Of a stretch of 64,000 nucleotides of DNA, positions 43,021 through 44,122 are shown piece by piece. Every line of letters begins with the position of its first letter. Position 1 is the stretch's first letter. A model generated the notes under the pieces. It was given only the letters and a program-made list of their open reading frames with translations, was not told the DNA's origin and did no database searches. A program made the translations under genes and the position numbers. This DNA comes from Candidatus Purcelliella pentastirinorum (lineage in GTDB: Bacteria > Pseudomonadota > Gammaproteobacteria > Enterobacterales > Enterobacteriaceae), in assembly GCF_028748785.1 (NCBI RefSeq), contig NZ_CP110496.1, positions 186,001 through 250,000 on the forward strand, given 5' to 3'.

Positions 43021-44122
43021 ATGCAAATAAAAATAAATACTATTATAGATTGTATGAAAAATTTAAATAAAAAATATAAAAATCTTAGGAGGTATTTTTA
43101 ACTATAAAAAAAATAAAGTAAATTTTATAACAATGAAAAATAAATTACAAAAAATATATTTATCTAAACAAAATAAAGATATCAAAAAAATAAATAAAAA
43201 ATATAAAACTTTAAAAAAAACAATTAATAATATTAAAAGTATTAAAAAAAAAATAAAATATGTTAAAGAATTATTTCAACTTTCAATTGAAATAAGAGAT
43301 AATTCTATACTTGATGATATAAATGTATATATAAAAAATATTAATATAAGAATAAATAATTTAAAAACAAAAAAAATGTTTTGTAAAAAATATGATAAAT
43401 ATAATTGTTATATAGATTTTCAATCAGGATCAGGTGGAATAGAAGCTCAAGATTGGACTTCAATTTTATTGAAAATGTATTTAAAATGGATAGAAAAAAA
43501 AAAATTCAAAAGCAAAATAATTAATAAATTAAATGGTGAAAAATCTGGAATTAAATCAGCAACATTACATGTAACAGGTAAATATGCATTTGGTTGGTTA
43601 CGCACTGAAAGTGGAGTACACCGTTTAGTTAGAAAAAGTCCATTTGATACAGGTAATAAAAGACATACATCTTTTAGCTCTACTTTTATATACCCGGAAA
43701 TACAAAATAAAATTAATATTAAAATTAATCAAAATGATTTACGTATAGATGTATATAAATCATCCGGATCAGGAGGCCAACATGTCAATAAAACTGAATC
43801 AGCTGTAAGAATAACACATATATCTACAGGTATTGTTGTGCAATGTCAAAATAATAGATCACAACACAAAAATAAAAATACTGCTATGAAACAAATAAAA
43901 AAAAAATTGTATAACTTAGAAATAGAAAAAAAAAATATTAAAAAACAAAAAATAGAAAATAAAAAATCCGATATAAGATGGAGTAATCAAATAAGATCTT
44001 ATATATTTGATGATTCTCGTATAAAAGATCTTAGGACAGGTATTGAAATTAGAAATGTTCAATATGTATTAAATGGTAATTTAGATAAATTTATTAAAGC
44101 AAATTTAAATATGAAACCATAA
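43021..44122 (+). CDS. prfB: Peptide chain release factor 2, expressed by programmed +1 frameshift
   Basis: RF2 releases peptides at UGA and UAA. Frame-0 starts at ATG 43021, runs 26 codons to TAA at 43099-43101, and the remainder lies in the +1 frame from AAC at 43100. Joining them gives 366 residues against 365 in E. coli, and the joint falls at the same place (RYF|NYKK here, GYL|DYDA in E. coli). An ATG at 43133 would drop the family N terminus. The GGQ loop ([18 protein letters not shown]) and the [12 protein letters not shown] segment are intact. Followed 1 bp later by lysS, the ancestral prfB-lysS operon. Confidence 0.93.
43084..43102 (+). promoter_or_regulatory. prfB recoding site with AGGAGG stimulator and UAA stop
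   Basis: The sequence CTT AGG AGG TAT TTT TAA C corresponds base for base in layout to the E. coli site CTT AGG GGG TAT CTT TGA C. The internal Shine-Dalgarno-like element is AGGAGG (43087-43092), three bases before the slippery codon. The P-site codon is TTT (43096-43098), which can re-pair perfectly one base forward on TTT. The stop is TAA rather than the usual TGA. The following base is C, giving the poor termination context expected. Confidence 0.9.

Follow-up and report, generated by a model that had tools for sequence, protein, structure and literature searches.

In the window, the 64,000-nucleotide stretch of DNA analysed here, prfB (the gene for RF2) is divided between a short frame-0 leader and a body in the +1 frame (Table 1). 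The leader starts at ATG 43021, the codon that would follow the slip in the +1 frame is AAC (43100-43102), and the body is open to a stop at 44120-44122; it also matches the prfA model TIGR00019 below the cut-off, as a paralogue. These coordinates bear out what the first-pass annotation had described, namely a 26-codon leader with AGGAGG three bases before TTT TAA C, a UUU slip codon combined with a UAA stop, and an RF2 body in the +1 frame that gives a joined protein of 366 residues. The flanking genes, from a reading of their ORFs, are presumably tadA on the 5' side and lysS on the 3' side. The window, with a GC content of 20.4%, spans positions 186001-250000 of a genome that consists of one contig (483,447 bases) and has a tRNA count of 31. 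Candidatus Purcelliella pentastirinorum, a planthopper symbiont, is listed in an excerpt of PMC12505427 with 481 kb, 21.7% GC and 31 in the tRNA column, a similarity of size, GC and counts.

Table 1. Features of the prfB locus (positions are those of the window).
Feature	Positions	Strand	Basis or remark
prfB, whole	43021-44122	+	26-codon leader and 340-codon body, 366 residues joined
prfB frame-0 leader, 26 codons and TAA stop	43021-43101	+	ORFs; aligned leader in sister G001
Internal Shine-Dalgarno (SD)-like AGGAGG, 3 bases 5' of slip codon	43087-43092	+	Pattern search, reading of bases
Spacer TAT	43093-43095	+	Between AGGAGG and TTT
Slip codon TTT (tRNA-Phe), can re-pair with UUU in +1 frame	43096-43098	+	Reading of bases
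Internal stop TAA, then C	43099-43102	+	TAA 43099-43101, C 43102
RF2 body, +1 frame, 340 codons and stop	43100-44122	+	GGQ and SPF motifs; Ser at 246 position
Alternative 329-codon ORF, first ATG of body frame	43133-44122	+	Rival start; lacks an SD-like sequence immediately 5'

The locus carries the features of a prfB frameshift motif in the broad sense of an excerpt of PMC12421855: an early in-frame stop ahead of a +1-frame body, a slip codon with an SD-like stretch three bases 5' of it and a matching 16S tail, an internal stop that RF2 can read (UGA or UAA but not UAG, here UAA), and a C directly 3' of that stop. With the E. coli-type prfB (AGGGGG UAU CUU UGA C) it shares the short leader, the UAU spacer, the distance from SD-like stretch to slip codon, the C after the stop and the one-base shift into a body in +1, but it differs in having UUU instead of CUU, UAA instead of UGA and AGGAGG instead of AGGGGG. 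Both the slip codon and the RF2-only stop of the canonical CUU UGA C cassette are thus replaced. The AGGRGGTATYTTTRAC pattern, with up to two mismatches, occurs once in the window and exactly, against 0.23 occurrences expected from shuffles. As AGGAGG by itself is no rarity in the window (13 against 3.7 expected), it is the placement and frame of the prfB AGGAGG that carry the weight. This over-representation would suggest that SD-like sequences are kept in this AT-rich genome. Among ordinary TAA stops in the window, 2 of 49 have C as the next base (+4).

Each of the two changes is already known singly. An excerpt of PMC12421855 reports internal prfB stops in 8,164 of 12,753 genomes, of which 98.6% are TGA, 1.4% TAA and none TAG (over 99% TGA according to its Discussion); there TAA at this site is described as poorly tolerated and random in its distribution, and TAA sites are argued to stay sensitive to RF2. 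Those CTTTAA sites share UAA with the window but have CTT where the window has TTT. The TTT slip codons in the same excerpt (TTTTTGA; 21 genomes of Aquificota and Gammaproteobacteria) share the UUU read by tRNA-Phe and the low GC, but all of them keep TGA, whereas the window has TAA. Few species have UUU_U, which in E. coli shifts far less efficiently than CUU_U (excerpt of PMC5009743). The UUU-UAA pair is not described in the excerpt of PMC12421855, and older work may have it. The pair makes the locus a variant form of the established RF2 frameshift cassette; what is new here is that UAA is common in reduced genomes of the window's GTDB family. A scan of GTDB-220 contigs with AGGRGGTATYTTTAAYTAY, from which the window's own genome may be absent, returned 55 stretches, 12 of them leading into a +1-frame RF2 and all 12 CTT TAA, while the other 43 are not RF2. 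These 12 come from two Serratia symbiotica, four purple sulfur bacteria by name (for three of which the family is our assumption), a Neisseriaceae, a Comamonadaceae, a Lysobacterales, a Marinospirillum, a Sumerlaeia and a gammaproteobacterium, which shows UAA outside reduced genomes as well. In purple sulfur bacteria, where CTT TAA prfB sites are seen at L077, L117, L126 and L129, UAA may have become fixed in a part of the group.

The gene for RF1, prfA, which the first-pass annotation had proposed to look for, is present, with an open frame of 358 residues that contains the GGQ and PAT motifs, and looks intact. In the whole genome prfC (RF3) was not found, the best match to its model scoring 168.7 bits (cut-off 466.95) and none appearing at E 1e-100; this best match, 705 residues long, we take for EF-G by its length. 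The 16S 3' tail GGATCACCTCCTT is present in G000 and in G001, a sister species of the same genus, and the tRNA genes found in the genome include one tRNA-Phe(GAA), tRNA-Leu(GAG) and tRNA-Trp(CCA). Gene stops in the window are TAA in 49 of 54 cases, with four TGA and one TAG. RF2 itself carries Ser just before SGSGGQ, at the position that we number, by assumption, as equivalent to 246. In bacteria other than E. coli K-12, residue 246 of RF2 is Ala or Ser, and the Ser/Ala form has a major part at UAA; loss of RF3, in turn, raises frameshifting at prfB (all from an excerpt of PMC5373646). Having Ser and not the weak Thr of K-12, the RF2 of the window should still act at UAA.

How widespread such sites are was surveyed in 95 reduced genomes (at most 2.4 Mb) of the window's GTDB family, taken from a relatives sample and from a listing of 295 genomes; in that listing, genomes were picked by hand according to size, and individual inspection was confined to the smaller ones. 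A frameshift was read in 55 of the 95, and 54 were kept after G594 had been dropped as spurious. The other 40 (about 40%) were read as having no frameshift, a class in which G612 (CTT TGA, no ATG leader found) was kept. G431 and G559, both CTT TGA, were added late, and G058 (of another family, read as no frameshift), G028 and G052 stand outside the counts. Slip codon and stop were CTT TGA in 28, CTT TAA in 16, TTT TGA in six, TTT TAA in three and GTT TGA in one, which places UAA at the internal stop of 19 of the 54 frameshift-keeping genomes and in 15 of 33 genera. The first-pass annotation had held UGA to be nearly universal at these sites; this is right for the overall record cited above but incomplete, UAA being already in print and common in the reduced genomes of this family. 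For comparison, 44 genomes of 1.7-5.5 Mb were taken from the relatives sample; three had no frameshift and 41 had frameshift sites, 40 of them CTT TGA by script and one (L267) CTT TGA by eye. With genomes treated as independent, UAA at 19/54 against 0/41 gives p 4e-6, and 19/56 with the late additions gives p 1e-5; by genus it is 15/33 against 0/41 comparison genomes.

Eighteen genera have TGA only, ten TAA only and five both (g224, g209, g200, g140 and g141), so that at least five changes from UGA to UAA took place within genera, provided that genera are monophyletic and UGA is ancestral; the TAA case of g200, G579, has a degraded SD-like stretch. The UUU-UAA pair occurs in two genera, and G443, from the second of these, does not group with G000 and G001 in a tree of 41 RF2 proteins that is mostly unresolved and whose bootstrap is not settled. 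A pattern search over 394 genomes of the order yielded 86 rows in 85 genomes, 83 of them CTTTGA; TAA stood in G000, in G029 and, as a bare pattern match, at a second G245 site. At L201 (G498) the prfB slip codon is GTT before TGA, and two congeners have TTT TGA.

Several candidate causes of the changes were tried and rejected. Locus GC does not predict TAA over TGA sites (p 0.24). Loss of a CUU-reading tRNA does not account for the UUU slip codon, tRNA-Leu(GAG) being retained. Loss of the A37 modification of tRNA-Phe was rejected as well, with miaA in 54/54 genomes, miaB present in G000 and G001, and miaB absent from 5/9 TTT genomes against 15/45 others (p 0.27). Reassignment of UGA to Trp in the window's genome is contradicted by the lack of a UCA-anticodon tRNA-Trp among the tRNAs found and by the 4/54 window ORFs that end in TGA. 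Elsewhere, an RF2 match in a 300 kb genome of g201 (G649:C1:6850-7797, its start covered by L247) has three in-frame TGA, and two other g201 genomes and three 200 kb g177 genomes gave no RF2 match at E 1e-75; this pattern could mean UGA reassignment or RF2 decay. An RF2 match with one in-frame TGA lies in an 800 kb genome (G494:C1:617582-618547).

The base after the internal stop, where it is C or T, is the third base of an Asn (UAA) or Asp (UGA) codon in the +1 frame, and C against T is therefore a synonymous choice there. C stands at 11 of the 18 UAA sites with C or T, against 3.0 expected from each genome's own AAC/AAT use (P 1.4e-5), and at 10 of 14 against 2.56 expected with one site per genus (P 1.0e-5); for UGA sites it is 18/28 against 4.4. 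An SD-like stretch with at least three G is found at 18/19 UAA sites and 30/35 UGA sites (fewer than three in 6/54). As C at +4 makes for weak termination and exceeds the synonymous expectation, the UAA sites look used, and together with SD-like retention this would speak for sites kept for weak termination. The excess of C may in part be ancestral inertia. The internal stops of the 54 genes (TGA 35, TAA 19, TAG 0) can be set against their final stops (TAA 40, TAG 6, TGA 6, two not read): internal TGA in 35/54 lies far above final TGA in 6/52 read (p 1e-8), so UGA is still favoured at the internal site, more than mutation and normal stop usage would account for, while UAA is tolerated and recurring. 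The absence of UAG from internal stops fits a need for a stop that RF2 can read, but it also fits AT bias. RF3 was found in 4/19 UAA against 18/35 UGA reduced genomes, with p 0.043 uncorrected for testing or kinship.

The prfB site is most probably (roughly 75%) a +1 programmed frameshift of the known kind with two AT-ward changes, CUU to UUU and UGA to UAA. Its architecture, its presence in the sister, its recurrence and its retained weak +4 C are direct observations. A ribosome reading the leader would come to UAA in the A site while its P site holds tRNA-Phe on UUU and AGGAGG is paired to the 16S rRNA tail. Where release is slow, tRNA-Phe would slip by +1 from UUU to UUU, and RF2 would be made. 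Release at UAA would be brought about by RF2 in its Ser246 form and also by RF1, and low RF2 would therefore still favour the shift while RF1 would dampen it. RF2 would thus still feed back, with RF1 as a second brake, and slower termination in the absence of RF3 may make up for the poorer UUU site. That the shift happens, how efficient it is and how it responds to RF2 and RF1 are deductions from sequence. The poorer performance of UUU_U relative to CUU_U and a loosely constrained leader peptide count against the reading.

Homopolymer context makes sequencing or assembly error a natural suspect for the TTT TAA site, and an indel at the 5-T run had been raised by the first-pass annotation together with slippage on the transcript. 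The comparison of prfB with sister symbionts, which that annotation had suggested, bears on this point: G001, a separate species whose RF2 is 89% identical, carries the identical AGGAGGTATTTTTAAC (the same AGGAGGTATTTTTAACTAT) at the prfB site, and G443, a third genome from another genus, has AGGAGGAAT TTT TAA C, so that an error is very unlikely. Transcript slippage at the 5-T run spanning the site could also restore the prfB frame, but it would be useless for the 16 reduced genomes that have CTT TAA at the same place and no such T run, and the 167 runs of at least five T within 27 genes of the window would all suffer from it; we give it little chance. Site conservation was itself set aside as proof of selection, as the sisters, about 93% identical over the RF2 body (differing at about 7%) and sharing 22/23 bases of the site, are too close to be informative.

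A weightier alternative, which we regard as plausible though not favoured, is that the shift happens but senses total release capacity, RF1 and RF2 both acting at UAA, or is constitutive. RF1 is intact, the predominance of TAA among the window's stops leaves little work for RF2 alone, and TAA sites go with RF3 absence at the uncorrected p value given above; however, the Ser246 form of RF2 is active at UAA (PMC5373646, excerpt), UGA is kept at most internal sites of the family although ordinary stops are mostly TAA, and TAA sites have been argued to be RF2-sensitive (PMC12421855, excerpt). Alternatively, leader and shift site could be vestigial and a shorter RF2 could start at ATG 43133. This ATG is kept in the sister, 40/95 classified reduced genomes lack a frameshift by our reading, and the leader and post-shift stretch differ between the sisters by 11 amino-acid-changing and one silent codon differences, against 38 changing and 30 silent in the body from 43133 (p 0.024); the leader peptide is thus loosely constrained, which counts somewhat against strong constraint. 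Yet there is no SD-like sequence before 43133, the frames are open in both species, and the whole series of AGGAGG, spacing, slip run, stop and C is present despite a GC content of 20%, which makes a start at 43133 unlikely. The best reading is AT-biased drift of a shift that would still be working, in which RF2 could still quench and RF1 now could too; the classic RF2-only logic would most likely be weakened, not abolished.

The RF2 cassette is a textbook case of autoregulation, and the logic of the loop depends on RF2 being the only factor that reads UGA. While UAA is rare and random in the excerpt of PMC12421855, here it is concentrated in reduced genomes and stands beside UGA sisters within genera. 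The stop has changed repeatedly in the family sample, and a functional conversion may have gone with it. Perhaps, and this is offered tentatively as a somewhat doubtful extension, the RF2 thermostat of shrinking AT-rich genomes has repeatedly been turned from an RF2-only (UGA) into a total-release (UAA) sensor as UGA stops and RF3 fade, with the genus of the window furthest along, its slip codon also being UUU. The loop seems to be lost in about 40% of the classified reduced genomes, and close pairs (e.g. in g209, g224, g140 and g141) are natural experiments in which it may be retuned, loosened or drifting before loss.
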